Shown here: positions 4,378 to 33,743 of the stretch, piece by piece | Position numbering within the stretch: the first letter of the stretch is position 1 | How the letters are laid out: each line of letters opens with the position of its first letter | Source: Litoreibacter ascidiaceicola | GTDB taxonomy: Bacteria > Pseudomonadota > Alphaproteobacteria > Rhodobacterales > Rhodobacteraceae | Assembly (NCBI RefSeq): GCF_900129235.1 | Contig: NZ_FQUV01000011.1 | Coordinates: 1-64,000, forward strand | Length of the DNA stretch: 64,000 nt | Direction of reading: 5' to 3' | Notes under the pieces: generated by a model | Database searches by the model: none | Told to the model about the DNA's origin: nothing | Seen by the model: only the letters and a program-made list of their open reading frames with translations | Position numbers and translations under genes: made by a program

Positions 4378-4448
4378 GCAGCGAATGTCTCCTTCGACGG
4401 GCCGCACCGCGGCATTGCCGGGTATCAGCCAACGGCGGCTCTGGGCCG
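4378..4448 (-). repeat. Hairpin intergenic repeat, copy R1
   Basis: Read on the minus strand it runs from GGCCCAGAGCCGCCGTTGG through ATGCCGCGGTGCGGCCC to GAGACATTCGCTGC, matching the family seen at 13214, 29811 and 31796. It lies 62 bp after the DUF2130 stop codon. Confidence 0.7.
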
Positions 4449-4571
4449 TGCCTGTCCGAGGCAACGACGCCCTAGCGATCAGATGCTGCGATCGATCTAA
4501 CGGCAGGTGAGAGCCCTGAGTTACCTAATGCGCAAATTGACACTTCGCTTCAAATCGAGTGACCTGACCAC

Positions 4572-4994
4572 ATGTTCTTGTATCAATTGGTGTCTTCTGA
4601 CAAATCAACCTTGCTCCCGTCTCAGCTCGGCAAGTACAAATGCTTGTTGTTGATTGAAAGGGTTGTCGAAGATGGCTTCCGACATCAACTAAGCCGTTCC
4701 TTAGTCGATAGCGGGTGCCTGTATACCATGGCGTGGGGTCTCGATTGTTCTCTTTGGGATGACAGCGTAGATTATGCAAGCATTGAGAAATTTGGCGATG
4801 GCGGTATTCCTGACGATCAATTCGTGATGACGACATGGCACACGGATGACACACTGGAAGAAGTGGTTAGGTTTGCAAAGATAGATGCGATGTTCTCCTA
4901 TACGGACGAACCACTCACCAATCTTTTGGTGCTTGATCTTAGAGACGAAAGCCGAGCTGAGGCCATCGAAGAACTATTCAATAAAGTTGGATGA
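4572..4994 (+). CDS. Conserved hypothetical protein, DUF7684-like
   Basis: A 140-residue soluble protein without signal peptide or membrane segment. The centre (AWGLDCSLWDDSVDYA, then FVMTTWHTDD and EVVRFAK) resembles small proteins grouped as DUF7684 as I remember them, whose role is unknown. The frame starts with ATG but has no strong ribosome site. It stands alone between repeat R1 and the next hypothetical gene, as expected for a single-gene accessory insertion. Confidence 0.6.
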   Translation: MFLYQLVSSDKSTLLPSQLGKYKCLLLIERVVEDGFRHQLSRSLVDSGCLYTMAWGLDCSLWDDSVDYASIEKFGDGGIPDDQFVMTTWHTDDTLEEVVRFAKIDAMFSYTDEPLTNLLVLDLRDESRAEAIEELFNKVG

Positions 4995-5256
4995 TATTGC
5001 GACAATTGTAACCTAAAAGAAGGTAGCTTTGTCCCGCACAGCAGACCTTGCGGCCATCTGAGGGTAAACTGTCGTACAAAGCAGTTGATCCAACTGATCA
5101 GTAGCTCAGAACCCGAACGGCTGCCTTCGTTGCGTGGATGGCGATCCATCTCAAGGCCAAGTTATCTCAATTGGCACCGGGCGAAGTTGCCGAAATGTTG
5201 ACTATTCAGTCAGCATGTTCTATTTTTGTTCTAAATCAGTAAGAGAGGACAAGATT

Positions 5257-5604
5257 ATGGTATTTGCTCTCCAGTCTCAACCGAACTCTCAGGCGAACCC
5301 TTATGGCGGACCCGATCAGTCTGAGTTGCCGGCTACAGAAAAACAGATCCGGTTCGCGCGACGAATTGCATTGACTGGTGGGATTGTGTTGCCATGGGAA
5401 GCACAGGTGTCGCGTCGCTCGCTGTCTCAATGGATTGATGCCAATGCTGCTGTTCTCAATTCGCCGAGCGAGTTTTCCCAGTATGCGAGCTCAAAACAGG
5501 TTGCTTTTGCTGAACGCATTGCCCGCATCAAACGGCGCCAAGTTCCCCATGAGTGTTTCAAAGATCGCCAGCTGATGTCACGCTGGATCGACAGCAATAA
5601 GTGA
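5257..5604 (+). CDS. Small hypothetical protein with two internal repeats
   Basis: A 115-residue protein with no recognised domain. Two similar halves are visible: ATEKQIRFARRIALTGG...SRRSLSQWID (residues about 24-61) and SSKQVAFAERIARIKRR...KDRQLMSRWID (about 74-110). Each half carries a basic helix followed by an S-x-W-I-D ending, which suggests a duplicated helical unit. The start is set by AGAGAGGAC, 8-15 bases before ATG 5257; the frame is open upstream but lacks a better start. It is a monocistronic accessory gene. Confidence 0.65.
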   Translation: MVFALQSQPNSQANPYGGPDQSELPATEKQIRFARRIALTGGIVLPWEAQVSRRSLSQWIDANAAVLNSPSEFSQYASSKQVAFAERIARIKRRQVPHECFKDRQLMSRWIDSNK

Positions 5605-5955
5605 TCAATTGACCTTCAGGAATAGTCGGCATCCCGATTTGATACAACATAATCAAGCTTATAGGTAAAAAGTACTGACCTAATTTTCCTCTGCTTTTTT
5701 CATTTAAACCTCTTGAACCGGTCTCCTAACCCTTCAGCTTTAGGAAAATCGGCACTTGGACCGTCTTGTCCAGAAGCTGTCCGTCCTTTGGAATCGAAGG
5801 TTAAGAATATTCCGCCATTTTGCCCGGGATCTGAGCTAACGCAACCGCAGTCCCACCGAACCCGCACCTTGCCGCCCAGTCAGCGGCGGTCAGTACATTG
5901 CAGTATAGCGCAGATGTCCGCAGCGCGGACTTTGCCGCCGTTTGTATCCAGATGA
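5605..5955. other. Gene-free stretch with weak repeat-like sequence
   Basis: No coding frame here has a plausible start and composition. The right part (about 5870-5945) contains several GC-rich inverted segments around GCAGATGTCCGCAGCGCGGAC that resemble a degraded copy of the hairpin repeat family. The left part is AT-rich with a T-run near 5690. Confidence 0.35.
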
Positions 5956-6651: not shown

Positions 6652-7018
6652 TACGCGCGAGTACTTCCTAACTACTTGAGCGGACATTAGCTGCGCCGCC
6701 GAATAATGTCACTTCGGGCTCTTTCCAGCCATTCTCCGCCCCGCAGCATGAGCAGTAAGCGCGCCGAGCGGCCCAAAGCCGACATCCAGCGGGCATTCCA
6801 GATGCTGCGGTTGCAGCCCCCATTGCCGCCATTCGCTGCATAAGCAGTAACCTGAACTGGTTGAACTCACAGTCTGCGGACATAACTGCCTTTCGTAAGT
6901 TCAGCTATCGCGAACGATGGCAATTTAGCTACTGCCAAGGCTAGCTTAGATACCCCTAGCGTTTACTTACTTGGGAAAGCAGTTTGATGTCTGACTAGAG
7001 GACCCTAGTGCCTCGAGT
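6652..7018. other. Repeat-rich spacer
   Basis: This gene-free interval holds the long repeat copy R3 (6769-6880). Just before it, at 6690-6745, is a second, oppositely oriented relative, recognisable by CATGCTGCGGGGCGGAGAAT on the minus strand. Nothing else is recognisable. Confidence 0.5.
6769..6880 (+). repeat. Hairpin intergenic repeat, copy R3 (long form, 112 bp)
   Basis: Begins CGGCCCAAAGCCGACATCC, continues through GATGCTGCGGTTGCAGCCCC and CCGCCATTCGCTGC, and ends AACTCACAGTCTGCGGA. It matches 11947-12058 over the full 112 bp with no gaps and seven differences by hand count. Confidence 0.85.
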
Positions 7019-7845: not shown

Positions 7846-7915
7846 CGGCCCCCATTAGCGGACCTTCGCCGATTGCTTAAAATGCTGCGACAGCATCCAG
7901 CTTTGCGGACATTGG
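7846..7915 (+). repeat. Hairpin intergenic repeat, copy R4
   Basis: Starts CGGCCCCCATTAGCGGACC, has AATGCTGCGACAGCATCC in the middle and ends TTTGCGGACATTGGC. The bases from the repeat end up to the pseudogene start at 7967 are very similar to those between R14 and the intact gene at 31524. Confidence 0.7.
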
Positions 7916-7966
7916 CTTCCCTGATCAGTGCTTCTATCTTCTACCCCAGATCAAAGAGGTATTCAG

Positions 7967-9064: not shown

Positions 9065-10598
9065 GGCCGATTGTGTTGAAAAACTCTTCTTGTTTATGAC
9101 GTTGATGGCTGATTCAATCTTTGTATCGATGCAGGGGATTTATCGCGATGATGGGACCGAAGCAGGAAGCGCAAGCGGCGTTATTCTATGAGTTTTCGCT
9201 TGAGGATCACATTCCACCGGATCACCTGTTGCGCGCGATTGATAGGTTCACGGATCTGAGCTGCATTCGCGCCCATCTTTCGGATTTTTATAGTCATACT
9301 GGCCGCCCTTCGATTGACCCGGAACTGATGATCCGCATGTTGTTGGTGGGCTATTGCTTTGGCATCAGGTCAGAGCGCCGCTTGTGCGAAGAGATCCATC
9401 TTAACCTTGGCTACCGTTGGTTTTGCAAGCTCGATCTCTCAGATCCGATCCCAGATCATTCGACCTTCTCCAAGAACCGACACGGCCGGTTCCGTGATAG
9501 CGATCTGTTCCGGCATTTGTTTGAGGCCGTCGTGGCACGCTGCATGGCAGAGGGTTTGGTGGGTGGCGAGATTTTTGCGACGGATGCCAGCATCATCCAG
9601 GCTGATGCCAACAAGCAGTACTCGGCGCCAAAAGCGGACTGGGACGCGGCGCAGATAGACCCCGCGGTCGTGCCACGAGCCGTGCAAGAATATCTTGAGA
9701 CCTTGGATGATGCCGCATTCGGTGCAGCCAGCGAAGTGACACCAAAGTTCACATCGTTCTCAGACCCGGCCAGCCAGTGGACCGGTGCGTTGAAGGGGCC
9801 AGCGTTCTTTGCCTATTCGACCAACTACCTGATCGATACAGACCATGCGATCATCCTCGACGTTGAAGCGTCCCGCGCCATTCGTCAGGCCGAAGTCGGT
9901 GCGACCCGAACAATGCTGACGCGCACGCGAGACCGGTTTGACCTGTCTCCGGACCGCTTGGCTGCTGATACAGCTTATGGTTCCGGCAACATGCTTGGTT
10001 GGCTTGTGGATCAGGACATCGAGCCGCATGTTCCGGTCATTGATAGATCCGATCGCAAGGACGGTACGTTCTCCAATCTCGACTTTAGCTATGATCCTGC
10101 GACAGATGAGTACACTTGTCCGGGTGGAAATCCCCTCAAAAAGTACTGGCGAAAGATGCGCACCGCACGCACGGGCGTCAGCAAGGATGGTATCAAGCGG
10201 TACTATGCCAGCAAGACAAACTGCTCAACTTGCGCCCTCAAAGAACAATGCGTCCCAAACAAAGACGCGCGCATCGTCTCACGACATGTCCATGAGGCCG
10301 CCCGCGACAAGGCACGCCAGATTGCCAAAACGGACGCCTACGCCGATGCGAGCCGACGACGAAAGAAGGTCGAAATGCTCTTTGCACATCTCAAGAAGAT
10401 CATGCGGCTCGACCGCCTCCGCCTTCGTGGACCAAACGGCGCAAAAGACGAATTCCTCCTGGCAGCTACCGCCCAAAACCTTCGGAAACTCGCAAAACTG
10501 CGCCCAATGGGCCCGGCGATGGCATAAGATCAACGCGGCCAACAACAAACCGGCAGATCATGACAACGCTCAAGCCGAGTTTTTCAACACAATCGGCC
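9065..10598 (+). mobile_element. IS1182-type insertion sequence
   Basis: A perfect 22-bp inverted repeat bounds the element: 9065-9086 (starting GGCCGATTGTGT) and 10577-10598 (ending ACACAATCGGCC). Pairing continues partly inward to 28 bp. One transposase gene fills the interior, so the element is about 1.53 kb and looks intact. I see no convincing target-site duplication: the outer bases are GATGC on the left and CTAAC on the right. Confidence 0.85.
9148..10527 (+). CDS. IS1182 family transposase
   Basis: About 459 residues. It opens like IS1182 transposases (LFYEFSLEDHIPPDHLLRAID) with the N-terminal DUF772-type region (GYCFGIRSERRLCEEI, PDHSTFSKNR). A DDE-type catalytic Asp follows in FATDASI, a second likely acidic residue in LAADTAYGSG, and the C-terminal region HLKKIMRLDRLRLRG closes the domain. 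A cysteine cluster (CSTCALKEQC) is present, as in many IS1182 members. GCAGGGGA at 9131-9138 precedes the ATG pair at 9148/9151. The frame is full length, so the element may be active. Confidence 0.9.
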   Translation: MMGPKQEAQAALFYEFSLEDHIPPDHLLRAIDRFTDLSCIRAHLSDFYSHTGRPSIDPELMIRMLLVGYCFGIRSERRLCEEIHLNLGYRWFCKLDLSDPIPDHSTFSKNRHGRFRDSDLFRHLFEAVVARCMAEGLVGGEIFATDASIIQADANKQYSAPKADWDAAQIDPAVVPRAVQEYLETLDDAAFGAASEVTPKFTSFSDPASQWTGALKGPAFFAYSTNYLIDTDHAIILDVEASRAIRQAEVGATRTMLTRTRDRFDLSPDRLAADTAYGSGNMLGWLVDQDIEPHVPVIDRSDRKDGTFSNLDFSYDPATDEYTCPGGNPLKKYWRKMRTARTGVSKDGIKRYYASKTNCSTCALKEQCVPNKDARIVSRHVHEAARDKARQIAKTDAYADASRRRKKVEMLFAHLKKIMRLDRLRLRGPNGAKDEFLLAATAQNLRKLAKLRPMGPAMA

Positions 10599-10642
10599 CT
10601 AACCGGACATTCGAGCTTAGCAAAATTCAACAGGTTGCCTTC

Positions 10643-10714
10643 CCGAAAGCTGCCGTTCGTGTTGGGCGCGGCATATTCGGCTGGTCGGGTGACTGCTTTG
10701 CGGACATTCCTGCC
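10643..10714 (+). repeat. Hairpin intergenic repeat, copy R5 (diverged)
   Basis: Contains CGAAAGCTGCCGTTCGTG and then TGCTTTGCGGACATTCCTGC, the two flanking half-sites; the central part (GGGCGCGGCATATTCGGC) is diverged. It lies 45 bp outside the right end of the insertion sequence. Confidence 0.5.
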
Positions 10715-11946: not shown

Positions 11947-12058
11947 CGGCCCAAAGTCGACATCCAGCGGGCATTCCAGATGCTGCGGTCGCAGCCCGCA
12001 TTGCCGCCATTCGCTGCATAAGCAGTATCCTGGGCTGGTTGAACTCACAGTCTGCGGG
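11947..12058 (+). repeat. Hairpin intergenic repeat, copy R6 (long form, 112 bp)
   Basis: Second long copy, gap-free against 6769-6880. It ends with AACTCACAGTCTGCGGG. The gene-free interval 11818-12174 contains this copy and nothing else I can identify. Confidence 0.85.
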
Positions 12059-13213: not shown

Positions 13214-13283
13214 CGGCCCAAAGCTGACCTTGGCCGACCATTTGATATGCTGCGGTGCGGCCCACCGAAGCGGACTTTGGTGC
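13214..13283 (+). repeat. Hairpin intergenic repeat, copy R7 (near-consensus)
   Basis: CGGCCCAAAGCTGACCTTGG, then ATATGCTGCGGTGCGGCCC, then CCGAAGCGGACTTTGGTGC. The outer AAAGCTGACCTTGG and GAAGCGGACTTTGG are direct repeats around the central imperfect hairpin. A related minus-strand segment may precede it at 13120-13190. The rest of 13069-13487 shows no gene. Confidence 0.8.
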
Positions 13284-13487
13284 ACAGTGCAGCAATTCAG
13301 GATGTCCAGATGACTGCATCGGGACATTTGTGCCGTTTATGCTGTGGACAGCAATGGCCGCTCCAACGATCGTAGCCCGATAAACTGTTCTGCAGCCAAG
13401 CTCATTTACAATACGTTTCGGGTCAACTCAAAGTACTGCTTCTCGTTCTTTGCGCTTGAACCGATGGCGAAAAGCGGCGTCGATGAT

Positions 13488-14162: not shown

Positions 14163-14220
14163 AGTCAGCCGACATTCGTGCATCGCGCAGCATCGGTCGA
14201 AGAGGGCTCGAAGCCGACCT
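14163..14220 (-). repeat. Hairpin repeat copy R8, upstream of recombinase 1
   Basis: On the minus strand: GGTCGGCTTCGAGCCC, then GACCGATGCTGCGCGATGCA, then CGAATGTCGGC. The same sub-type (GACCGATGCTGC) occurs upstream of the second recombinase at 24761-24813. Confidence 0.65.
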
Positions 14221-14307
14221 CGGATGCGACGCAGCAACCTGTGATATGGTGGCATCGTCAACGTCGGGTTGTCGTTGGGGAGGGCATGGCGGATCGGAGG
14301 ATCAGTC

Positions 14308-14940
14308 ATGGAAACACCAAACTTACCGGCCATTCGCGCACTTCGCCCGGCTTGGAACAAGGGGCGCATCGTCGGGCAAAAACGGCCACTGAAACCAAAA
14401 CACGTCTGGGCAATCCGTGTTCGACTTGAACTCGCCGAGAACCATCGAGACCTCGCGCTGTTCAACATGGCAATCGACAGCAAACTGCGTGGCTGCGATC
14501 TCGTGAAGATGAAAGTCGTCGACGTGATGGCGTCCGGCCAGATCAAGGAACGAGCTTCGGTGTTGCAAAGCAAAACGCAGAAGCCGGTTCGTTTTGAAAT
14601 CTCCGAAGGCACACGCGCATCGGTTGAAAAGTGGATGGAAGACGAGCTCATGGTAGGCTCCGAGTACCTTTGGCCTGGACGTTTCCACGAACGCCTGCAT
14701 ATCTCGACCCGCCAATATGCCCGCATCGTTCGGGATTGGGTGAAATCAATCGGACTGGAGGCGAGCGCATATGGCACGCATTCCATGCGACGGACAAAAG
14801 TGACACAGATCTACAAGAAGACTGGAAATTTGCGGGCGGTCCAGCTCCTGTTGGGGCATACCAAGATGGACAGCACCGTCCGGTATCTCGGCGTTGAACT
14901 GGAAGATGCCCTTGCGATTGCAGAGGCCATTGAAATCTAA
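14308..14940 (+). CDS. Short tyrosine recombinase/integrase (paralog 1)
   Basis: 210 residues. The catalytic set of tyrosine recombinases is visible: Arg61 in SKLRGCDL, a Lys near 90 in SKTQKP, His158-x-x-Arg161 in GTHSMRRT, His184 in LLGHT and Tyr193 in VRYLGV. Only a short N-terminus precedes the catalytic domain, so the usual SAM-like core-binding domain seems absent. It is strongly similar to 24938-25570, with the same length and residue positions. ATG 14308 follows GGAGGATCAGTC. A repeat copy of the same sub-type lies upstream of both genes and another repeat directly downstream of each. Confidence 0.85.
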   Translation: METPNLPAIRALRPAWNKGRIVGQKRPLKPKHVWAIRVRLELAENHRDLALFNMAIDSKLRGCDLVKMKVVDVMASGQIKERASVLQSKTQKPVRFEISEGTRASVEKWMEDELMVGSEYLWPGRFHERLHISTRQYARIVRDWVKSIGLEASAYGTHSMRRTKVTQIYKKTGNLRAVQLLLGHTKMDSTVRYLGVELEDALAIAEAIEI

Positions 14941-14961
14941 CAACTTGGGCCGTCTTCACGG

Positions 14962-15029
14962 ACGGCCCGGAGCTGACATTGGTCAGCCAGTCTTGTGCTG
15001 CGTTGCAGCTTTCGCAATGCGGACATTGG
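14962..15029 (+). repeat. Hairpin intergenic repeat, copy R9
   Basis: ACGGCCCGGAGCTGACATTGG, interrupted here for length, then TGTGCTGCGTTGCAGC (perfect GCTGC/GCAGC stem) and AATGCGGACATTGG. It begins 21 bp after the stop of recombinase 1. Confidence 0.75.
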
Positions 15030-15033
15030 TCTA

Positions 15034-15579
15034 CTACACCGCATTTTTCCATTTCGCCGCGGTGAAGTACACGATGCTATCATCAACACTGACCATCACA
15101 TCGCCGTCCTGAATATTCACCTGTAGTTTCATCGCGCGACTCGCGAGTTTTTCCAGTGCGCTGGTGTCCGTTTGAGAAAAGTTAACAACCTGAAGATTGT
15201 CAAACCGGGTGGTGCTGTTTTTGATCTTTTCCCACCAGATGTCAGCTGTTCTGCCGCCGTAGCTATAGACGCTCACCTTGTCCGCTTTACCGCAGGATTG
15301 ACGCACGACCTTCTCGCTGGGAAGCCCTAACGCGACCCACAATTCCAGCTCGCCGCTTAGGCTCTTTTGCCAGATGTCGGGTTCGTCATCCGTTGAAAGT
15401 CCCTTGGTCATTTCTAGGCGTTCATGGGCATTCAGTGCAAAAGCGAGAATGCGTACCATCAATCGTTCATCCGTTTCTGACGGGTGTTTCGCTACGGTCA
15501 GTTTATGGGTCTCGTAATAGTGACGGTCCATATCCGAAACGGACAGTTCAACTTTATAGATAGTGGCCTTTTGCGCCAT
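15034..15579 (-). CDS. YaeQ family protein
   Basis: 181 residues, matching YaeQ in length and in the blocks KATIYKVELSVSDMDRHYYE, HKLTVAKHPSETDERLMVRI and WVALGLPSEKVVRQSCGKAD. YaeQ has a PD-(D/E)XK-like fold in known structures; its role is unsettled. The start ATG 15579 gives the canonical MAQKATIY beginning; the frame is open further upstream without similarity. It is the last gene on the minus strand before the oxidation operon and is separated from the cytochrome gene by 122 bp. Confidence 0.85.
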   Translation of the reverse strand: MAQKATIYKVELSVSDMDRHYYETHKLTVAKHPSETDERLMVRILAFALNAHERLEMTKGLSTDDEPDIWQKSLSGELELWVALGLPSEKVVRQSCGKADKVSVYSYGGRTADIWWEKIKNSTTRFDNLQVVNFSQTDTSALEKLASRAMKLQVNIQDGDVMVSVDDSIVYFTAAKWKNAV

Positions 15580-24749: not shown

Positions 24750-24760
24750 GCTTTGTAAAG

Positions 24761-24937: not shown

Positions 24938-25570
24938 ATGCCAAGAGTGCAACTTCCTGCAGTTACCCCAAAACACAAAGCCTGGAACAAGGGTCGGATC
25001 ATCGGCCAAAAACGTCCCCTTCTTCCCAAACAAGTGTGGGCCATCCGGGCGCGGCTTGAACTTTCGGGTTATCTTCGTGACCTTGCGCTGTTCAACGTTG
25101 CGATTGATAGCAAGCTGCGCGGCTGTGATCTGGTAAAACTCGCCGTGGCCGATTTGGTCAAAGATGACCGCGTTCGCGAACGCGTTTCAATAGTCCAGAG
25201 TAAAACCAAGAAACCCGTTCAGTTCGAAATCACTGAAAACACAAGAGATACCGTCATTGCGTGGGTGCGATCTCCTGAGATGATCGGGTGCCGGTTCATG
25301 TTTCCGAGCCGTTTCCACGACCGCCCGCATATCTCAACACGTCAATATGGTCGACTTGTTCGTGACTGGGTTACAGCGATTGGCCTGGAACCCAGCGGAT
25401 ACGGAACACACTCGATGCGCCGAACCAAAGCTGCGGAGATTTACCGCAAGACGGGGAACCTCCGCGCCGTACAACTTTTGTTAGGCCATACGAAGGTCGA
25501 TAGCACAGTGCGTTATCTGGGCGTTGAGCTGGAAGATGCGCTAAGCATTGCTGAACGGATCGACATCTGA
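24938..25570 (+). CDS. Short tyrosine recombinase/integrase (paralog 2)
   Basis: 210 residues, collinear with 14308-14940. The catalytic residues are Arg61 (SKLRGCDL), Lys near 90, His158/Arg161 (GTHSMRRT), His184 (LLGHT) and Tyr193 (VRYLGV). As in its paralog, the N-terminal core-binding domain is missing; the chain begins with a basic segment (KHKAWNKGRIIGQKRPLLPK) that may take over DNA contact. The ribosome site GGATTGGAGG is strong. The gene is bracketed by repeat copies R10 and R11. Confidence 0.85.
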   Translation: MPRVQLPAVTPKHKAWNKGRIIGQKRPLLPKQVWAIRARLELSGYLRDLALFNVAIDSKLRGCDLVKLAVADLVKDDRVRERVSIVQSKTKKPVQFEITENTRDTVIAWVRSPEMIGCRFMFPSRFHDRPHISTRQYGRLVRDWVTAIGLEPSGYGTHSMRRTKAAEIYRKTGNLRAVQLLLGHTKVDSTVRYLGVELEDALSIAERIDI

Positions 25571-25630: not shown

Positions 25631-25800
25631 CAGCGGTCGGCAGGACTGAGCCCAATATCAACGGATGCTGCGCCGCGCACCAATGGCCGGTACGGGGATA
25701 GGTTCACAATGGCTCTCGAACAGACGGCCCATAGCCGCCATTCACCCTGTGTTGTTCATGCTGCAGCGCGGCTCGTCAAAGCGGTCGTTCATTGCGGGCA
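25631..25800 (+). repeat. Hairpin intergenic repeats, copy R11 and a partial copy
   Basis: From 25724: ACGGCCCATAGCCGCCATTC, then TCATGCTGCAGCGCGGC, then AAAGCGGTCGTTCATTGC. Before it, 25655-25690 (GGATGCTGCGCCGCGCACC) looks like a partial copy. The gene-free interval 25571-25898 holds nothing else recognisable. Confidence 0.6.
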
Positions 25801-25898
25801 TAGTACTCACAGTTATTTGGTCAACAGTTCGACACTCCCGAAACCAAATTTGCATTTTCAATGAGACCAACCCCGCGCATAGCCGGGACCGATCTGTT

Positions 25899-27311
25899 TT
25901 ATTTGCGACCACGTGTTCGACGTGTGAAACGTGGCAACTCACCAGCCATAATGCTGCCGACCGGATCAATCCAATCTTCTACCGTAGCCAAGCCGAACTG
26001 ATCGATCTGCGCCTCGACTGCCACCGCCGGCTTGTAGCTCGACGGCAACTCGGATGCATCGACTTTGCCTTCGTAGAACCGAACATCCAAACCTGCCGTT
26101 TCCTCTGCAAGGGCTTCGGCCGGGGTCTTGCTTCCCAACCTGCGCATATGCTCAGTCCGAGACCAGTTGCGCCCAGCACCGTGTGGGCTGAAGCCCAAAG
26201 CGTTCGACGCATCGGATCCTCGCACGATCAAAATAGGTTCCGCCATGTTCATCGGTATGATCGTGCGCCCATTCGGATCTGCGTCTGCCGCAAACCCAGA
26301 CCAAGCCGGTGTCGCACCTTTACCGTGCAGATAGATATCGCCGCGCCGGAAGACGAAGTTATGCTCGTTCCAGAAACGCTCCCCTGCCGAAGCACAAGCT
26401 TTTTCCATGGTCGCCTGATGAATGGAATTGTGGTTGGTCTTGGTCCACTTTCGGATCAATTGCAGCGCATCCCAATAGGCTTGACCTTCTTCGCTGTCAG
26501 CCGGAATCCACGCGTTCTGCTTCAAGGTCATCGGCGAATGGCGCTTACGATATTTTTCCGCTACTTCCATACCCGCCTTATACAGTTTCGCCCCCGGCCC
26601 GCGTGAACCGTGATGCGTCACAAGTATGGTATTGCCCGTTGCACGAGACTTTCCGACGAACAGGAAGTGGTTCCCGTCGCCCTGCGTCCCCATATGCTCC
26701 TGCGCGGCGCGAACAGTTTTTGCATTGCTCAGGAACGGGTTGGCCCGAAATGCGTCAAGCAGATCAAGCGAGACCGTAAAGCGGTTGCCTTGAGGCCGTC
26801 CGCCGGGACCAAAATGCGTCACCGCCGATGCGGCGTCCAGCACAGTGGTCGGATCGGCATCGCCAAGATCAGTCAACATGAGCGAGCAACAGATATCGGC
26901 CGAATGCATGCCCGGATGGATGGCGTTCTGCGCCGCGACGACACCGCCGACGGGAATTGTCCCGACAGGCCCTGCAGGACAAGCATCAGGCAAGATCGCA
27001 CCACCGACAACCGTGGGTGTCCGCATTACCGCGCGCATCGTCTCTCGCACTTTGGCGAGGTTCTTTTCCTCATCTGCATCAGCTGGTGTCAGGTTCTCAT
27101 GGAACACAACCTCGCCATCCTCGTGCAAACTGATCTGCGCAGGCTGCTTGGGGATTTCAGCTGCAAGCGCTGTTTGAATCGCATCTATATCAGCGCCAGA
27201 GCGGAGCATGTCGTTTGCGCGATCAATCAGGTTCGGGAAAGCAGGGCCGGGCGTATGGCCCCATCCTTTCAAAATAGTGCCAGTTATGGGCGTCATCGTC
27301 ATGTCGTTCAT
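25899..27311 (-). CDS. rtcB: RtcB family RNA-splicing ligase
   Basis: About 470 residues. RtcB joins RNA 2',3'-cyclic phosphate or 3'-phosphate ends to 5'-OH ends using GTP and Mn2+. Visible landmarks are HPGMHSADICCSLM (metal Asp/Cys), GTQGDGNHFLFVG with the metal His, LVTHHGSRGPG, and SPHGAGRNWSRTE with the His that becomes guanylylated. ATG 27311 follows GAAGGACGAAGACA. It is divergent from rtcR with a structured leader between them. No rtcA or rsr is beside it. It may counter the tRNA-cleaving activity typical of RloC proteins, which is inference. Confidence 0.9.
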   Translation of the reverse strand: MNDMTMTPITGTILKGWGHTPGPAFPNLIDRANDMLRSGADIDAIQTALAAEIPKQPAQISLHEDGEVVFHENLTPADADEEKNLAKVRETMRAVMRTPTVVGGAILPDACPAGPVGTIPVGGVVAAQNAIHPGMHSADICCSLMLTDLGDADPTTVLDAASAVTHFGPGGRPQGNRFTVSLDLLDAFRANPFLSNAKTVRAAQEHMGTQGDGNHFLFVGKSRATGNTILVTHHGSRGPGAKLYKAGMEVAEKYRKRHSPMTLKQNAWIPADSEEGQAYWDALQLIRKWTKTNHNSIHQATMEKACASAGERFWNEHNFVFRRGDIYLHGKGATPAWSGFAADADPNGRTIIPMNMAEPILIVRGSDASNALGFSPHGAGRNWSRTEHMRRLGSKTPAEALAEETAGLDVRFYEGKVDASELPSSYKPAVAVEAQIDQFGLATVEDWIDPVGSIMAGELPRFTRRTRGRK

Positions 27312-27335
27312 TGTCTTCGTCCTTCGGTCAATGCT

Positions 27336-27352
27336 CCCCTGACGCTCAGGGG
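27336..27352 (-). promoter_or_regulatory. Stem-loop in the rtcB leader
   Basis: CCCCTGA and TCAGGGG form a perfect 7-bp stem with a 3-base loop, about 25 bases upstream of the rtcB start codon and just before its ribosome site. It could regulate translation or be a cleavage site; no direct evidence. Confidence 0.5.
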
Positions 27353-27360
27353 TGACTTTC

Positions 27361-27396
27361 AAAAAAATCAGCGGGCCGGAAATGGGCCCGGCCCGC
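27361..27396 (-). terminator. Intrinsic terminator immediately upstream of rtcB
   Basis: GCGGGCCGG (27371-27379) and CCGGCCCGC (27388-27396) form a perfect 9-bp stem. On the minus strand it is followed by TGA and seven T residues (27361-27367). It ends about 50 bases before the rtcB start, so transcripts from further upstream must terminate here or read through. Confidence 0.75.
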
Positions 27397-27480
27397 CGCA
27401 GCTACGGATGCGTATTCATCCGCCTGTCCAGGTTCTTCTCTTCTGGTGGGATATGTTTGGCAGCTAATTACTCCCACTCC
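27361..27480 (-). ncRNA. Candidate small structured RNA or rtcB leader with attenuator
   Basis: On the minus strand, from 27480: GTGGGA pairs with TCCCAC 20 bases on; CGGATG/CATCCG forms a perfect stem with a 6-base loop (27401-27424 region); a terminator hairpin closes the transcript at 27361-27396. Three consecutive helices ending in an intrinsic terminator describe a discrete RNA of about 110-120 nt between rtcR and rtcB. The 5' end is a guess. I cannot assign it to Y RNA or any family. Confidence 0.45.
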
Positions 27481-27602
27481 AAAACAATTGTGAAAAGTCG
27501 TGAAGTAACTGTTTTATAAAGATAATAAGCCATCTTGCGGATAATGAACCATATCGATACGATATATATAAATCGTAACTTATCCATTTGGAGCGCAGGC
27601 TC

Positions 27603-29165
27603 GTGCGAAACGTCGTCATCGGATTCCTAGGCACGCAGTTGGACATGGGCAAACGTCGCCGCTGGCGCCCAACCGTTGATCTGTGCCGGACGGAAGGCTT
27701 TCCCGTTGATCGGCTCGAGTTGATCCACGACCACAAGTTCAACAGGCTCGCACATAGCGTTAAGCGCGATATTGAAGAAGCATCGCCTGAAACCGAGGTC
27801 TTGCTTCATCGTATGGATATGGACGACCCGTGGGATTTGGAGGAAGTCTACACGAAGCTGTTCGATTTCGCCTCAGATTATGGTTTTGACGAAGATCGCG
27901 AACGCTACCACATTCATCTGACGACGGGCACACATGTTGGGCAGATTTGCTGGTTCCTGCTGTCTGAATCCCGTCATATCCCAGCCGCTCTGATACAAAC
28001 TGGCCCGCCACGGGGAGGCGACGATGTCGGTACGTTTGACCTTATCGATCTCGATCTCAGTCGCTACGACGCCCTGCAACAGCGGTTCGATCAACAAACG
28101 CGCGAATATGGAGACCTACTCAAGGGCGGGATTAAGACGCGCAATGTGGCATATAACAGGCTAATTGACAGGATTGAACAAGTGGCAGGACTGTCGGATG
28201 CGCCCATCCTGCTGCAGGGCGAGTCTGGCACCGGGAAATCTGAACTTGCGCAACGGATCTACGAATTGAAGCTGCAACGTAGGCGCGTGAAAGGCCGCTT
28301 AGTTCATGTGAATTGTGCCACGCTTCGTGGTGGCACCGCGAATGCTACTCTGTTCGGTCAACGCCGCAGCTTTACAGGGCAGGCCGGCACAGAACGCGCA
28401 GGGCTCTTGCGGGAAGCAGATGGCGGTGTTTTGTTCCTCGATGAGATCGACGCGCTCGGACTGGAAGAACAAGCCCTGCTGCTCCACGCCATTGAGGCGG
28501 GGCAATACTATCCGCTTGGTTCTGATGCGGAAGTCACTAGCCGGTTTCAGGTCATCGCCGGGGCCAGCGGCGATTTGTCCGCCATGGTCTCTGAAGGCGT
28601 TTTCCGAATTGATCTGTTAACGCGCTTGAACCTGTGGACGTTCCATTTGCCCGCGCTGCGTGATCGCCCTGAGGACTTCGAAGTCAATCTCAGGCACGAA
28701 CTGGCACAGGCCGAAAAGACGCTCGGTATACGTGTAGGTTTTAATTCCGACGCCTCTGAAGCTTGGCTACGGTTCGCCAGTGCGCCCGGTACGCTTTGGC
28801 CTGGTAATTTTCGGGATTTCAGCGGGGCTATCTTGCGCTTATGCACCCTCGCCCCACGGGGGCGGATCACCAGGGCACAGGTTGTTGATGAAATTGCAAC
28901 GCTTGAACGAAGATGGCGTGCGGCAGATACTGACCAGAACTCCCAGCTTGTCGCCAAATATGTTAATGGACCGGTAGATCCATTCGACATCCCGCAACTC
29001 GCGAATGTCCTTCATACTTGTCAGACCTCGGCGACCATCAGCGAGGCCGGGCGGCGGCTATTTGCGGTATCACGCGAAGATCGCAAGAGTCGGAACGATG
29101 CAGACCGGTTACGCAAATATCTTGCGAAATTTGACCTCAGCTGGGCCGAGCTAAATGATGGCTGA
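27603..29165 (+). CDS. rtcR: RtcR, sigma-54-dependent activator of the rtc RNA-repair genes
   Basis: 520 residues. The N-terminal CARF-like RtcR domain is evident (VIGFLGTQLDMGKRR, ETEVLLHRMDMDDPWDLEEV, HIHLTTGTHVGQICWFLLSE). The AAA+ domain follows with Walker A GESGTGKS and Walker B GGVLFLDEID. A C-terminal helix-turn-helix ends NDADRLRKYLAKFDLSW, as in E. coli RtcR. The loop that contacts sigma-54, normally GAFTGA, reads RSFTGQ here. GTG 27603 was chosen because family members begin directly at MR(K/N)xV; GCAGG stands upstream. It should activate rtcB when it senses cyclic-phosphate RNA ends or tRNA fragments. Confidence 0.9.
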   Translation: MRNVVIGFLGTQLDMGKRRRWRPTVDLCRTEGFPVDRLELIHDHKFNRLAHSVKRDIEEASPETEVLLHRMDMDDPWDLEEVYTKLFDFASDYGFDEDRERYHIHLTTGTHVGQICWFLLSESRHIPAALIQTGPPRGGDDVGTFDLIDLDLSRYDALQQRFDQQTREYGDLLKGGIKTRNVAYNRLIDRIEQVAGLSDAPILLQGESGTGKSELAQRIYELKLQRRRVKGRLVHVNCATLRGGTANATLFGQRRSFTGQAGTERAGLLREADGGVLFLDEIDALGLEEQALLLHAIEAGQYYPLGSDAEVTSRFQVIAGASGDLSAMVSEGVFRIDLLTRLNLWTFHLPALRDRPEDFEVNLRHELAQAEKTLGIRVGFNSDASEAWLRFASAPGTLWPGNFRDFSGAILRLCTLAPRGRITRAQVVDEIATLERRWRAADTDQNSQLVAKYVNGPVDPFDIPQLANVLHTCQTSATISEAGRRLFAVSREDRKSRNDADRLRKYLAKFDLSWAELNDG

Positions 29166-29187
29166 CAGTAGGTGGAGGCGACCAACC

Positions 29188-29257
29188 CGGCCCATAACGG
29201 ACCTTGAGCCTTTCAATCAAATGCTGCGATGCGGCCCGCAGAACCGGACGTTCGTTC
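29188..29257 (+). repeat. Hairpin intergenic repeat, copy R12
   Basis: CGGCCCATAACGGACCTTG, then AAATGCTGCGATGCGGCCC, then GAACCGGACGTTCGTTC. It starts 23 bp after the rtcR stop codon. Confidence 0.7.
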
Positions 29258-29375
29258 CGTAACGCTGGGTCACTAGTGGACCAAAGGGCTCCGGAACGTT
29301 CAGCCGTTAGACAGAAACGAAAACTAATGCGATGGTGGTCAGAATTTCGATGTCTATTTGACTCTCGAGGCAAGC

Positions 29376-29810
29376 ATGAGCCTGAAGAAGATCCAAATCG
29401 AGAGCCTCCTTTCGGAACATGAGGTCGACTTTAGCCCCGTTCAATCCAACGAAAGCGAGCAATTCAAGAGACTTTGGCTAGTTGCCTATGCCGCGAGAGT
29501 GAAGAAAGAGACCGGTGTGTGGATACACAATCGTTTTCGATGGCATGGCTTCAGCTACGGCTTTCAATCCGCAGTTTCGGGATCAGATGCTCTGACTGCT
29601 TACCAAAGCCAATGGCAAGCCCCCTATGTGATTTTCGATGAGGAGGACACTTGGGCGTATCACTGTACTTCTGAGAAGTATCCCGACCTTACTTCATCAC
29701 GAGCAGACATCTACGTGGCTCACCATAATATGAAATGGACGATGGTCTTCACTCATGAACAACCACACATCGGGCCTTATCTCGCCTTTAAGTCTAAGAA
29801 CGTTGATTGA
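29376..29810 (+). CDS. DUF4275 family protein
   Basis: 144 residues. RWHGFSYGF, then YVIFDEEDTWAYHC, and the C-terminal ADIYVAHHNMKWTMVFTHEQ and HIGPYLAF are the hallmarks of DUF4275, small proteins often found as single accessory or immunity-like genes. Function is unknown. The ATG at 29376 has GAGGCAAGC upstream. The gene is enclosed by repeats R12 and R13, and R13 begins at the base after its stop codon. Confidence 0.75.
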   Translation: MSLKKIQIESLLSEHEVDFSPVQSNESEQFKRLWLVAYAARVKKETGVWIHNRFRWHGFSYGFQSAVSGSDALTAYQSQWQAPYVIFDEEDTWAYHCTSEKYPDLTSSRADIYVAHHNMKWTMVFTHEQPHIGPYLAFKSKNVD

Positions 29811-29880
29811 CGGCCCAAAGCTGCCGTTGGCGAGTTGGACCGACGCTGCGGTGCAGCTTCCCCGAAGCGGCCATTGATCG
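29811..29880 (+). repeat. Hairpin intergenic repeat, copy R13 (abuts a stop codon)
   Basis: CGGCCCAAAGCTGCCGTTGG, then ACGCTGCGGTGCAGC (perfect GCTGC/GCAGC stem), then CCGAAGCGGCCATTG. Its first base follows the DUF4275 TGA directly. Confidence 0.8.
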
Positions 29881-30004
29881 GTCGCCCAGCACTGTGATGG
29901 AACCGATGACTGCAATGCGGGACAAAGCGCCATTTTGCTGCGGCTGCGCAAATGGCTGCTTTAGGCCTGGCGCACCAATAGAACATTGCAGCAGGACACG
30001 TCGG

Positions 30005-30355
30005 TTAATCCGTATAGCTTCGGCAGGCATCGACCCCTACGGCTGTCGAGGCAAGTAGTTGATCTGCGTCGCGGATGAGATCAGCGATCCGCCTGTCCGC
30101 AAGGCGATACCGGACGAACCGACCTTCGTTCCTGCGACTGACCAGACCGCAATCCAAAAGGCAGCGCAGATGGTTCGAGACATTGGGCTGACCAAGCCCT
30201 GTTTGGGTAACGATTTCCTGCACGCTGCGTTCGTCCGACAGTAGCGCATCGAGGATCGCAAGACGGCTGGGGTCGCCGAGACCCCGGAAGAGCTTTGCCC
30301 GCGGCTCAAGGGTGTCAGCTGCCGAAAGATCGTCTTGAATGTTTTGCAATGTCAT
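30005..30355 (-). CDS. ArsR/SmtB family metal-sensing repressor, CmtR-like
   Basis: 116 residues with a winged helix (DPSRLAILDALLSDERSVQE, LGQPNVSNHLRCLLDCGLV). The Cys-x3-Cys in the recognition-helix end (RCLLDC) plus a C-terminal Cys (GVDACRSYTD) reproduce the three-cysteine site of the CmtR Cd(II)/Pb(II) sensors, so soft-metal sensing is likely. ATG 30355 is preferred; a GTG at 30367 would add four residues and run through the inverted repeat. It is divergent from the CDF exporter it probably represses. Confidence 0.8.
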   Translation of the reverse strand: MTLQNIQDDLSAADTLEPRAKLFRGLGDPSRLAILDALLSDERSVQEIVTQTGLGQPNVSNHLRCLLDCGLVSRRNEGRFVRYRLADRRIADLIRDADQLLASTAVGVDACRSYTD

Positions 30356-30372
30356 ATCATTATCCACTGATA
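30355..30372. promoter_or_regulatory. Inverted repeat, likely operator of the metal repressor
   Basis: TATCA (30355-30359) and TGATA (30368-30372) form a dyad with eight bases between, at the 5' end of the repressor gene and facing the CDF gene. Size and location suit an ArsR-type operator; inference. Confidence 0.5.
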
Positions 30373-30418
30373 CGTTAGCGGCGACTTCTTTCGCACGCTA
30401 CCTTCAAGAGGATCGCAT

Positions 30419-31270
30419 ATGAGCCGAGCAGATAACACCACATTGCCTACAACGTCTTTGCCGATCCGGATGCGGGTGCATGGCATGGACTGCGCCAAGG
30501 ATGCCGCTGAGATCGAACGGGCCGCTCGGTCTGCGGGCGTGGCTGAAGGCGATGTGAAGGTGTCTGCCGCAACCCATGTCATGACATTGCGGATCGCCGA
30601 AGACGACTTGCCGAAAGTGCGTCCAGCACTGGACGCAACCGGCTATGGCTTTGAGCTGATCAAGAGCGGGGATACATCGTCCGATCCGGCTTACAAAGAC
30701 CCGAGCTATCGCCGCGCGCTCTGGATCGTGGTCCTGCTCAATCTCGGCTACGGGGTGATCGAGATGTTCGGCGGGTTCCTGTCCGGATCGCAAGCTTTGA
30801 AAGCAGATGCCCTGGATTTTTTGGGCGACGGCGCAATCACCTTTCTGGGCCTGCTCGCTATCGGTTGGAGTCTGACATGGCGGGCGCGGTCGGCGATGAT
30901 CCAGGGCGTGTTCTTGGGATTTCTGGGGCTTGGCGTTGTCGGCAGCACAATCTTGCGTGTCCTGAATCAGACGACACCAGAGGCCGGGTTAATGGGAGCC
31001 TTCGCCGTGGGCGCGCTGATCGTAAACATTCTTGCGGTGCTGCCGCTGCTAAAACACCGCAAGGGCGACGCCAACATGCGGGCCGTATGGCTGTTCTCCC
31101 GGAACGACGCCATCGGCAACCTCGCCGTGGTGATCGCTGCCGGACTGGTCGCCTGGCTCGGCAGTGCCTGGCCTGACCTCATCGTTGCTTTCGCCATCGC
31201 AGGGCTGTTCCTGCATTCGTCATGGATGATCATCCGGGATGCGCGGAGTGATCTGTCAGAAACCGAGTGA
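30419..31270 (+). CDS. CDF-family cation transporter with N-terminal HMA-like domain
   Basis: 283 residues. Residues about 15-62 form a heavy-metal-associated domain (MRVHGMDCAKDAAEIERAA) with only one Cys of the usual CxxC pair. From about residue 95 come six hydrophobic segments; KADALDFLGDG and SRNDAIGNLAVVI take the place of the two metal-binding helices of cation diffusion facilitators, with His replaced in the second. Probably a heavy-metal (Cd/Zn/Co class) exporter driven by protons. AAGAGGA precedes ATG 30419. It pairs with the divergent CmtR-like repressor. Confidence 0.8.
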   Translation: MSRADNTTLPTTSLPIRMRVHGMDCAKDAAEIERAARSAGVAEGDVKVSAATHVMTLRIAEDDLPKVRPALDATGYGFELIKSGDTSSDPAYKDPSYRRALWIVVLLNLGYGVIEMFGGFLSGSQALKADALDFLGDGAITFLGLLAIGWSLTWRARSAMIQGVFLGFLGLGVVGSTILRVLNQTTPEAGLMGAFAVGALIVNILAVLPLLKHRKGDANMRAVWLFSRNDAIGNLAVVIAAGLVAWLGSAWPDLIVAFAIAGLFLHSSWMIIRDARSDLSETE

Positions 31271-31274
31271 TCTG

Positions 31275-31346
31275 GCGGAAAAGCTGACGTGCGAACCGGA
31301 AACCGACATTCGCCACTGCGCAGCGAGTCCGGAACTTTGGGCTCGT
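31275..31346 (-). repeat. Hairpin intergenic repeat, diverged minus-strand copy
   Basis: On the minus strand: CGAGCCCAAAGTTCCGGAC, then TCGCTGCGCAGTGG, then CGAATGTCGG. It starts within ten bases of the CDF stop codon. Confidence 0.5.
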
Positions 31347-31405
31347 TGCAGCCATCGTGGTTAGTGCAGCATCTGGGCTCTTAAGCTGACTTCCTCAGTT
31401 GAGGA

Positions 31406-31473
31406 CGGCCCAAAGCCGACACCTAGCGGATGTTCCTAATGCTGCGGGCGCAGCCCGCTTTGCGGACATTGGC
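31406..31473 (+). repeat. Hairpin intergenic repeat, copy R14
   Basis: CGGCCCAAAGCCGACACC, then AATGCTGCGGGCGCAGCCC (perfect GCTGCG/CGCAGC stem), then TTTGCGGACATTGGC. Its downstream flank is shared with copy R4. Confidence 0.8.
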
Positions 31474-31523
31474 TTCCGTGATCAGTGCCTCTATCATTTA
31501 TGGCAGCTCAAAGAGGTATTCAG

Positions 31524-31790
31524 ATGGAACGCGAACCCAACCTTGTCATCTCCAGTGTCTCGCAGCGCATCGTTGAGGATGGGGCGCCATTCAAGGTGGA
31601 CATTTACAAACTCGAAGGCGGGGACGGTTGGTCACTGGAAGTTGTGACCGAAGATGGGACATCCATTGTCTGGGACGATCTTTTTGAGGACGACCGAGCC
31701 GCACTCGAAGAGGCAATCAGCACCATTCGAACCGAGGGCGCAGTTGCTTTCGCCAACGGTGGCTCAAACGTCGTCCAGTTTAAGCAGTAA
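31524..31790 (+). CDS. Small acidic hypothetical protein (88 residues)
   Basis: An acidic soluble protein: NLVISSVSQRIVEDGAPFKV, then KLEGGDGWSLEVVTEDG, WDDLFEDDRAALEEAISTIR. Two or three strands followed by a helix are likely; no family is recognised. CAAAGAGG precedes ATG 31524. The gene is enclosed by R14 and R15, the latter starting six bases after the stop. A broken 5' copy together with its upstream repeat occurs at 7846-8050, so gene and repeat have been copied as a unit. Confidence 0.7.
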   Translation: MEREPNLVISSVSQRIVEDGAPFKVDIYKLEGGDGWSLEVVTEDGTSIVWDDLFEDDRAALEEAISTIRTEGAVAFANGGSNVVQFKQ

Positions 31791-31795
31791 GTGAC

Positions 31796-31867
31796 CGGCC
31801 CATTGCTGCCGTTGGTCAGGCACTGGCCATGCTGCGGTGCGGCCCCTCAGACCGGACCTTCGCTGCG
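31796..31867 (+). repeat. Hairpin intergenic repeat, copy R15
   Basis: CGGCCCATTGCTGCCGTTGG, then CCATGCTGCGGTGCGGCCCC, then AGACCGGACCTTCGCTGC. It begins six bases after the preceding stop codon. Confidence 0.8.
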
Positions 31868-31981
31868 CCTGCATGATCTTGTTGCCTTCGAACTCACATG
31901 AGTTCCCATCAGGTACCAGCCTTTGCTGACCGCCGCTTACCGAACAAGAGCAACAATATGATCTATACCTGCCCGATCAAA

Positions 31982-33532
31982 TTACTCCGCCCTACTGTGA
32001 TGATCATCCCACCACGGTAAAACTTCACCAAGTCTGTGGGCAAACGGATATTTTTCGCCCCTTGGCATATCATCGCCCATCAACCTTTTATGGACACCGT
32101 CCAGCATCCAACCAATGCACTCATTTGCGCCCTCCGCGACGGCGGCAAGAAATGCGTCTTCATCTGCCGTGGCCAGTGTTCGCTCCAACTGGTCGATTGC
32201 AACGAAAACAACTGGGCGTCGGTCCTCGTCTATAATTAAGGCGTCCTTTGCATCTGCCATCTTGCCCGCTTCTGCAAGAACGTGATCGCGCAAAGGCCCG
32301 CTCATCGCCAACCAGTTGTCTAAAGTCAGTATAACCCCCAATGCGCCGGGAGAAAGGTCGTGTCCTGTCAACCCACGACGACAATGCGAGAAGTAGCGCC
32401 AAAGTTGAAACACTGCTTTTGCCATATCTTCGAAACCGCGTTCATCGGTCGGTTTTCTCCCAAACATAGCGGCCTGCGACATACGGGTTGCTTTGCATTC
32501 AAGCGCAAGCTTAATCTGCCCATCCAACTTACAGATAATGTCAGGTGTATCAAATTTCGCTTTTCTAGTTCCGTATTTTGTTTCGCCGCACCAAATCAAT
32601 CCGGGAAGCATCAAGGTTAAGTACTCAAGACAGTACGCTTCAAATCGCCTCGCATAATCATTCCGCACCGCACCACCACCATCTGCAACGTCATAGAATA
32701 GACCGGATGTCGTGCGTTCGAGTATCAATTCGGGTATTGGGCATCGAATGCGTCTAGCACTATCCGTGAACTCGATACACGGGAACTTTCGGAACTCACT
32801 CGCACGGTAAGCAGTGGGCTGTAGCACCTTTAGATTCAATCGCGCCTTTTGCTCGGCCTTTGTGAAAGGCTGACAGATTAGCGCCAAAGTCTTGTTAACG
32901 TCATCCTGCGTTACACCCAAGCGCTCCCAGTCTTCATCAAGTTTCAGGATAGGCCTTCCTGTAAATGCAGCATGAAGGACGAAGCCTGTCCTATTGAAGC
33001 TGTTGATGCTCAAACCATTGGTTTCCTTGAAATACTTGGCACACTCTCCCTGACCATAGATATAGACGTTCCGATAGAATTGCGCCATGTTCGCGTAACC
33101 GCGTTGCCAAGCGAACTGACGGCTGGCTAAGCGCGCCATTTCAACAAGCACACCACCGTCCTTTTTCCAAAACCAACTTTCTTCATCCTCCAACGACCTA
33201 AGTGTGTTCACGCAAGAAATAGCATTTCCGAAAGAACGCCAGCTTCGCTCTTTACGGTTTTTCCGACTCTTGAACTGTGCCGTCTTTGGAACGGTCAAGA
33301 TTTGGTTTGCAAGCGTTTCTAATTCCCACGGGTGAATCCGATGCGTAGCGTTAAACCCTACGTTCTCCGCACCCTTTGGGATAGTGTTTGGGTCAAGGAA
33401 CTTCGCTCCTACCCCTGGCTTTTCGGATTGCAGCATTTTGACCGACCAAAGAAGTTGTATGAATCCTTCACTGCTAAATGAGCCAAGTAGCTTGTTCAGT
33501 TTTTTTCGGTGGCGTTGTTTCAAATTTGACAA
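31982..33532 (-). CDS. PD-(D/E)XK-type nuclease-like protein of unknown system
   Basis: 516 residues, basic N-terminus (LKQRHRKKLNKLL). In the C-terminal half a restriction-endonuclease-like core is visible: RRFEAYCLEYL (Glu298), TPDIICKLDG (Asp331) and LALECKATR (Glu345-x-Lys347). A large N-terminal domain of unknown fold precedes it. No helicase or methylase is adjacent. The start is TTG 33532, chosen because AAGGATGGG stands 6-14 bases before it and the next Met is residue 33. It is separated from neighbours by repeats R15 and R16. Defence or mobile-element function is inference. Confidence 0.65.
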   Translation of the reverse strand: MSNLKQRHRKKLNKLLGSFSSEGFIQLLWSVKMLQSEKPGVGAKFLDPNTIPKGAENVGFNATHRIHPWELETLANQILTVPKTAQFKSRKNRKERSWRSFGNAISCVNTLRSLEDEESWFWKKDGGVLVEMARLASRQFAWQRGYANMAQFYRNVYIYGQGECAKYFKETNGLSINSFNRTGFVLHAAFTGRPILKLDEDWERLGVTQDDVNKTLALICQPFTKAEQKARLNLKVLQPTAYRASEFRKFPCIEFTDSARRIRCPIPELILERTTSGLFYDVADGGGAVRNDYARRFEAYCLEYLTLMLPGLIWCGETKYGTRKAKFDTPDIICKLDGQIKLALECKATRMSQAAMFGRKPTDERGFEDMAKAVFQLWRYFSHCRRGLTGHDLSPGALGVILTLDNWLAMSGPLRDHVLAEAGKMADAKDALIIDEDRRPVVFVAIDQLERTLATADEDAFLAAVAEGANECIGWMLDGVHKRLMGDDMPRGEKYPFAHRLGEVLPWWDDHHSRAE

Positions 33533-33654
33533 ACTAACCCATCCTTTGATCGACCAGGTAACTGTGAATGTTTGATAGCCTCAGGGCTACCTAAACGCTA
33601 AGGCTGCGAAGTTATCGGCGGCTTTGGCTCCTGTTTAGAAGCCGCTTCGCTCTT

Positions 33655-33743
33655 CGGCCCAAGCTGCCACTAGTGTTGTTCAGTTCGTGGGACTGCAAGT
33701 TTTCCGAAGCAGTCACTTACGGCCTGCATTGCAGGCATTCGCC
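33655..33743 (+). repeat. Hairpin intergenic repeat, copy R16 (diverged)
   Basis: CGGCCCAAGCTGCCACTAG, then GACTGCAAGTTTTCCGAAGC, then GCCTGCATTGCAGGCATTCG. The last part contains a perfect GCCTGCA/TGCAGGC inverted repeat. It lies between the convergent-side ends of the nuclease-like and DUF2130 genes. Confidence 0.55.

Follow-up and report, generated by a model that had tools for sequence, protein, structure and literature searches.

The best known system for stocking and reshuffling gene cassettes is, to our knowledge, the integron, whose attC sites have the core G/TTRRRY. Gene modules of another kind, the dif modules, have ~28-bp XerC/XerD sites in alternating orientation, and each of the strand-biased integrative elements of Vibrio is reportedly one large element that encodes several recombinases. 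In Alphaproteobacteria, integrons are described as only very occasional, for reasons that are unclear (PMC9024848). Here we analyze a family of repeats in a 64-kb stretch of DNA (the window; positions 1 to 64,000 of contig NZ_FQUV01000011.1) from the alphaproteobacterium Litoreibacter ascidiaceicola. These repeats very likely serve as recombination sites within integron-like cassette arrays, with a small, cassette-borne recombinase as the most likely enzyme. The system is apparently an undescribed variant of the integron type that has sites and an enzyme of its own; we found no description of such a system in the open-licence literature searched, which is not to claim that it is absent from print. 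A second cassette system, using other sites and another enzyme and present in 94 of 149 sampled genera of one family, would, if true, partly answer the question of why integrons are rare in Alphaproteobacteria.

An earlier, sequence-only reading of the window had proposed at least 15 copies of a dispersed, ~70-bp hairpin repeat with two like ends, confined to accessory DNA. That the family is real follows from counts far above chance: an end-motif search returned 27 matches to GAAGCGGACATT with at most two mismatches (7.0 expected) and 13 matches to CGGCCCAAAGCTGAC with at most three (2.8 expected). A profile made from the first copies preceded a sequence model, R1, built from 67 copies with a mean column identity of 59%. 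R1 detects 12 full copies in the window (E 8e-5 to 1e-18) and 18 in the 3.74-Mb genome (E <= 0.01); 12 of the 18 lie on the window's own 82,322-nucleotide (nt) contig, two on contig C3, and one each on C9, C14, C7 and C12, so that the family is clustered rather than evenly spread; the earlier reading was right to see a dispersed family that gathers in accessory DNA. The estimate of at least 15 copies proved too high; half copies (e.g., at 13108, 14167, 24761 and 31301) occur in addition to the full sites. Past 38.0 kb the window contains no copy, as had been noted, and there are just weak half matches at 37.7–38.0 kb.

The anatomy of the repeat was determined from 247 sites of the window, relatives and named genomes. 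Each site has a sharp left edge, the near-invariant hexamer CGGCCC (1.8–2.0 bits per base). In the 181 sites that lie outside recombinase units, every position left of the hexamer stays at or below 0.23 bits; to its right conservation continues to about +80 and weakly, as fainter motifs, to about +115, giving a leader of roughly 80–115 nt in place of a unit with two like ends. The direct-repeat outer boxes and the conserved inverted center were correctly recognized: AGCNGACNTT boxes stand at +8 and +55 or, read as NNAGCNGMCNTT, at +6 and about +53, the second ending in CATTCGCTGC. Between them, behind a spacer, a short inverted repeat of the form TGCTGC-N3/4-GCRGC begins at about +34.

The strain-level evidence comes from plasmids of Phaeobacter, which were reached through recombinase matches in a plasmid collection. 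Two gene blocks proved to be informative: block X (6,643 nt), which encodes a metallophosphoesterase, an ATP-binding cassette (ABC) transporter and a LysR-type protein, and block R (1,775 nt), which encodes an alpha/beta hydrolase and the small recombinase. Block X is present as a whole in 16 plasmid records. The 12 copies that we read, on replicon clusters 377, 558, 579 and 636 and in both P. inhibens and P. piscinae, are 98.4–100% identical and have seven different left and eight different right neighbors, with every joint at CGGCCC. Blocks X and R are each more than 99% identical among strains P92, M635, P54 and P18, and their high-scoring segment pairs (HSPs) start at base 0 (once at -2) and end at +5 or +6 of a CGGCCC site. 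Their order differs, being X–R in P92 (pP92_b) and M643, and R–X in M635, P54, P92 (pP92_a) and P. piscinae P18.

A comparison of filled and empty sites between strains, which had been suggested from the sequence alone, found both states in these plasmids. In five of them, the left flank of one locus is identical over 439–440 of 440 nt up to CGGCCC. What follows is block X directly in M634; block R (1,775 nt) and then X in M635 and P54; an RtcB/RtcR block (3,372 nt) and then X in P30 (pP30_a), where a truncated R (931 nt) stands behind X; and R with other DNA in M623, with no X in the stretch read. Comparison of these plasmids shows that gene blocks bounded by CGGCCC have been inserted, lost and reordered exactly at this hexamer, between replicons and between two species. 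In six conjugative plasmids (L177, L181–L185), CGGCCC directly follows the stop codon of one type IV secretion gene and is succeeded by four different sequences; this stop codon is a possible preferred entry site. With arrays beside a type IV secretion gene on conjugative plasmids, cassettes can therefore move between replicons and species. Among the blocks to the right of X, we also observed annotated defense genes, a TrlF-type ATPase in M625 and a retron St85 effector with its reverse transcriptase in M631 (L181, L182).

The recombinase gene itself moves as well, because the unit that contains it, running from GGGCTC to CGGCCC, is nearly identical across genera while its flanks differ. This unit of 767–769 nt is 99.35% identical between Sulfitobacter and Tateyamaria records (L139, L148), whose flanks differ, and 99.87% identical between Aliiroseovarius and Actibacterium records (L097, L100); in both pairs the right flank switches at CGGCCC. 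Overall, 110 of 270 right ends of recombinase-unit HSPs fall at +4 to +8 of CGGCCC, where random placement would put 0.08% in five such bases. A screen for insertions between genera gave two weak candidates, which were not used; the strain-level plasmids decided the matter.

Consistent orientation was evident in 76 named loci, fetched by means of the recombinase and retained from at least 510 candidates: 192 of 196 sites are oriented as the recombinase gene is, and in 65 of the 76 loci a site starts ~20–28 nt after the last sense codon of this gene, many loci having sites upstream of it too. One contig of a congener (L085) has 13 strong sites in 17 kb, all in one direction; another genome (G006, L080–L082) has nine across the 60 kb read, and two contigs of a third (G020; L092, L093) terminate inside sites. 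The intervals between sites have a median length of 2,274 nt (n = 180) and contain open reading frames (ORFs) of at least 100 amino acids (aa) on both strands, 299 on the strand of the site and 238 on the opposite one.

The two recombinases in the window, I and II (~210 aa), match only the catalytic domain PF00589. Alignment indicates that R, K, HxxR, H and Y are kept in both; in recombinase I the putative catalytic residues, in roles that we assigned, would be R59, K87, H156, R159, H182 and Y191, counted from the T at 14314. Four relatives of solved structure were found, namely XerA, a XerC-like protein and two XerD entries (E 1e-4 to 5e-3). Among the matches listed, relatives 94–100% identical occur in many genera. 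Over 71 loci the mean aa identity is 96.6%, while third codon positions are only 52% identical; the protein is therefore held by selection, some broken copies notwithstanding. The gene is coded within a cassette and, in Phaeobacter, moves as part of block R. A predicted structure of the recombinase was discarded (mean predicted local distance difference test score, pLDDT, 44.7), and 72 phage records, all below 60% identity, were likewise set aside.

For the distribution of sites we take the family Rhodobacteraceae broadly, as the named matches do (NCBI places Phaeobacter in Roseobacteraceae). In a sample of relatives, R1 at E 1e-3 matched all 20 congeners and, among other genera of the family, 11 of 16; none of the 24 genomes from other families gave a match. 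At E 1e-4, sites were found in 94 of 149 family genomes, one per genus, and in 7 of 190 in a sample of the class, the seven being the genome under study, two more members of the family and four genomes from outside it. Recombinase and sites go together: sites occur in 49 of the 52 genera that have the recombinase as opposed to 45 of the 97 that do not (Fisher p 1e-9), and at least five sites in 33 of 52 and 12 of 97, respectively.

Taken together, a cassette would extend from one CGGCCC to the next, consisting of this hexamer, a leader of 80–115 nt in which NNAGCNGMCNTT boxes at +6 and ~+53 enclose an inverted repeat of 5 bp (near +34), and one or several genes on either strand. Joints of insertion, loss and reordering fall inside the 6-bp CGGCCC, as the Phaeobacter plasmids show. 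The most likely enzyme is the small tyrosine recombinase (14308–14940, with its paralogue at 24938–25570), which would bind the leader boxes, and a circular cassette may be the intermediate. More broadly, we think it probable that Rhodobacteraceae in the broad sense have independently evolved their own form of cassette shuffling. Its recombinase of ~210 aa, frozen in sequence and itself mobile, would act on a pool of genes common to many genera; the site would be one-sided, with a 6-bp core, and would act as double-stranded DNA; and whole operons would be traded among chromosomes, large resident plasmids and conjugative plasmids.

Several observations weigh against this explanation. Tyrosine recombinases normally bind both sides of the joint, and the lack of conservation left of CGGCCC is thus odd for such an enzyme; how a recombinase can act where just one flank of the joint is conserved is a mechanistic question that this system raises. 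The left boundary of the recombinase unit, GGGCTC, differs from CGGCCC, giving two boundary types for which our explanation does not account: of 249 left ends of recombinase HSPs, only two fall at 0 to +7 of CGGCCC, and in 44 of 72 loci GGGCYS precedes the counted start of the ORF by 107–114 nt. Right ends form a second cluster at -22 to -28, the end of the ORF (75 of 270). Among 27 HSPs between genera that had been filtered as recombinase-free, just 2 of 21 left ends are at 0; of 26 right ends, four are at +5, all of them in HSPs with recombinase units that the motif filter had missed. Furthermore, 11 of the 76 recombinase loci have no site within 120 nt (one of them at a contig end), and in a sample of 61 genomes, 3 of 27 family genomes with at least four sites (G002, G008, G010) have no recombinase at E 1e-10. 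Finally, the co-occurrence counts for less as evidence than it seems to, because the recombinase gene is itself a cassette. Two side observations concern these boundaries and the recombinase. The GGGCTC boundary is preceded by an arm resembling an inverted leader, in outline AAAGCNGACATTCGTGCA..GCAGCATCGGTCACTTT, as if a second kind of site (e.g., window 14167–14209), and a pattern search finds its box in 17 of 44 cases. A third recombinase, 41–43% identical and pointing away from a site ~200 nt distant, is encoded on contig C14 (L031, 4215–4859) in a layout like that of an integron's integrase and first site; in two other genomes with a recombinase of this type, no site lies within the stretch read.

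The explanation that survives best beside the one we prefer accepts the sites as cassette joints and assigns their recombination to the host's XerC/XerD or to some other recombinase, the small recombinase being a frequent passenger. The three site-rich genomes without it, the site-bearing genera that lack it in the 149-genus sample, and its position inside a cassette like any other gene all speak for this view; nevertheless, none of the 10 family genomes with two or fewer sites has the recombinase, and the strong constraint on the protein suits an enzyme tied to many sites. We regard a passenger role as unlikely. Considerably less probable is that RecA-dependent homologous recombination between repeats of some other origin, such as repetitive extragenic palindromic (REP)-like or miniature inverted-repeat transposable element (MITE)-like sequences, rearranges the region. 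Direct repeats can recombine, and the sites are alike over 85–115 nt; against this stand the mean column identity of 59% and the Phaeobacter joints, which lie in the 6-bp CGGCCC and are not scattered through the leader. Nor does the genome contain a Y1 (REP-associated) transposase, PF01797 giving no match there and matches in 5 of 14 control genomes, which led us to reject an assignment to REP elements and their transposases. REP elements, their mosaic arrangements (bacterial interspersed mosaic elements, BIMEs) and MITEs resemble our family in being short, dispersed between genes and partly inverted; the repeat here, however, stands at joints and moves together with the gene block to its right. 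The least probable view, that the repeats act at gene ends as transcription terminators or as processed RNA elements, draws on the 110 of 268 sites with an upstream ORF that lie within 60 nt of a same-strand ORF end (~65 of these would be recombinase genes), and has against it the joints at CGGCCC, the strand of the next ORF (opposite in 102 of 172 cases), and the folding and Rfam results given below.

Folding of the sites bears on the proposal that selection acts mainly on a hairpin. A central stem of at least five pairs with a loop of 3–5 nt can form in 64% of the 247 sites and in 22% of shuffles (at least four pairs: 78% and 52%; at least six: 4% and 8%), so that the ability of the center to pair stands. 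The stem is mostly of fixed sequence, however: one position varies between T-A, T-G and C-G, with few rarer pair changes in one geometry. RNAalifold, applied to 15 copies, selected pairs other than those of the central stem, with a compensatory change in 1 of 11 and an unfavorable covariation term (+0.36). With DNA parameters, positions 0 to +90 fold no better than shuffled sequences on either strand (mean z -0.13 top, -0.19 bottom; 70 of the 247 sites, 20 shuffles each), and positions -20 to +170 show a weak tendency (z -0.77 and -0.72; 23% and 17% below -2). At the gathering score, Rfam has no match in the window, and a structured RNA was ruled out on this and on the scarcity of covariation. 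The emphasis on selected structure was not borne out; the copies are explained by their position, as joints between mobile cassettes, rather than by their hairpin.

The likeness to integrons, including clusters of attC sites lacking integron-integrases (CALINs), is considerable: arrays of directly oriented sites, one site per cassette, precise joints, a nearby tyrosine recombinase, reordering, accessory gene content, and location in islands and on plasmids. Nevertheless, of six integron features tested, only the direct-orientation array with precise joints was found; five were absent, one of these judged by comparison with the attC core sequence given above. The joint is CGGCCC and the conserved site stands at the start of the cassette; the attC core was not seen at the Phaeobacter joints, which read CGGCCC, no attC model having been run. 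As computed here, there is no unusual single-strand folding over 0 to +90. The recombinase of ~210 aa is coded inside a cassette, not outside the array beside attI, and lies far below the IntI cut-off (recombinases I and II score 23.9 and 22.5 bits on TIGR02249, cut-off 265; all eight matches in the genome are below it). Judged on ORF content, cassettes here hold several genes on both strands in place of one promoterless ORF. Membership among integrons or CALINs was rejected on the integrase, the joint sequence, folding and the place of the recombinase. The pdif (Xer–dif) modules of Acinetobacter plasmids likewise join gene modules at short tyrosine-recombinase sites; compared with the dif sites described above, our sites have a single orientation (192/196), a 6-bp core and a long one-sided leader. 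Our system differs from the Vibrio elements in being made up of small cassettes that form arrays and have one kind of site in common; those elements are reportedly also based on tyrosine recombinases and move accessory genes of marine bacteria (PMC9345347).

Table 1. Repeat-associated features of the 64-kb window
Feature	Coordinates	Strand	Remarks
Cassette site	4366..4448	-	CGGCCC at 4443-4448; 50 nt past 3' end of DUF2130 gene; sole full - strand site in window
Cassette site	6769..6849	+	R1 match
Cassette site	7846..7931	+	3-nt insertion after CGGCCC
Degenerate cassette site	10594..10673	+	R1 E 8e-5
Cassette site	11947..12028	+	R1 match
Cassette site	13214..13296	+	R1 match
Recombinase unit	14204..14968	+	Left GGGCTC 14204-14209, right CGGCCC 14963-14968; delimited by comparison with other genera
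Small tyrosine recombinase I	14308..14940	+	PF00589, 2.4e-17; alignment
Cassette site behind recombinase I	14963..15041	+	R1 match
Tyrosine recombinase II	24938..25570	+	67% identical to recombinase I
Cassette with RtcB (-) and RtcR (+)	25725..29187	+	Opens with site 25725-25803
Cassette with DUF4275 gene	29188..29810	+	Site 29188-29261
Cassette with ArsR-type regulator and cation transporter	29811..31405	+	Site 29811-29890; genes read from translations, no search made
Cassette with one 101-aa ORF	31406..31795	+	Site 31406-31488
Last full site of the array	31796..31878	+	R1 match

The array in the window (Table 1) is, judged by what lies between its sites, a cassette array of the same kind as in Phaeobacter, because the RtcB/RtcR and DUF4275 blocks are found between sites both here and in relatives. 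Window positions 25,918–29,166 align over 3,286 nt, at 68.9% identity and in the same orientation, with the RtcB/RtcR cassette of P. inhibens pP30_a, and a 74% identical copy of the DUF4275 block lies between two sites in a congener (L082). The array is also partly decayed, given its degenerate site, its half sites and an IS1182 transposase gene at 9121–10527. The site at 6769 is, from CGGCCC onward, 95% identical to 11947–12057, while the left flanks of the two are unlike. CGGCCC with its leader provides a simple marker by which to find what cassettes carry, for instance RtcB/RtcR, operons for transport, and defense genes including retrons.

The surroundings of the array hold some further genes of interest. 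A Zeta-toxin-like gene and a ParD-like gene (Pfam; 21617–22569) lie within the long interval from 14963 to 25725, and just outside the array an AAA protein (35131–37467) matches the PADLOC candidate defense model PDC-S06 (E 1e-130). Two DUF2130 genes in inverted orientation (3165–4316, + strand; 33768–34919, - strand, for which alone the Pfam match was run) are 79.5% identical in DNA over 1,217 nt and bracket the repeat region, which recombination between them could invert. Finally, positions 7881–8046 are 86% identical to 31438–31603, and the copy at 7.9 kb resembles a cut-off duplicate of the cassette with the 101-aa ORF.

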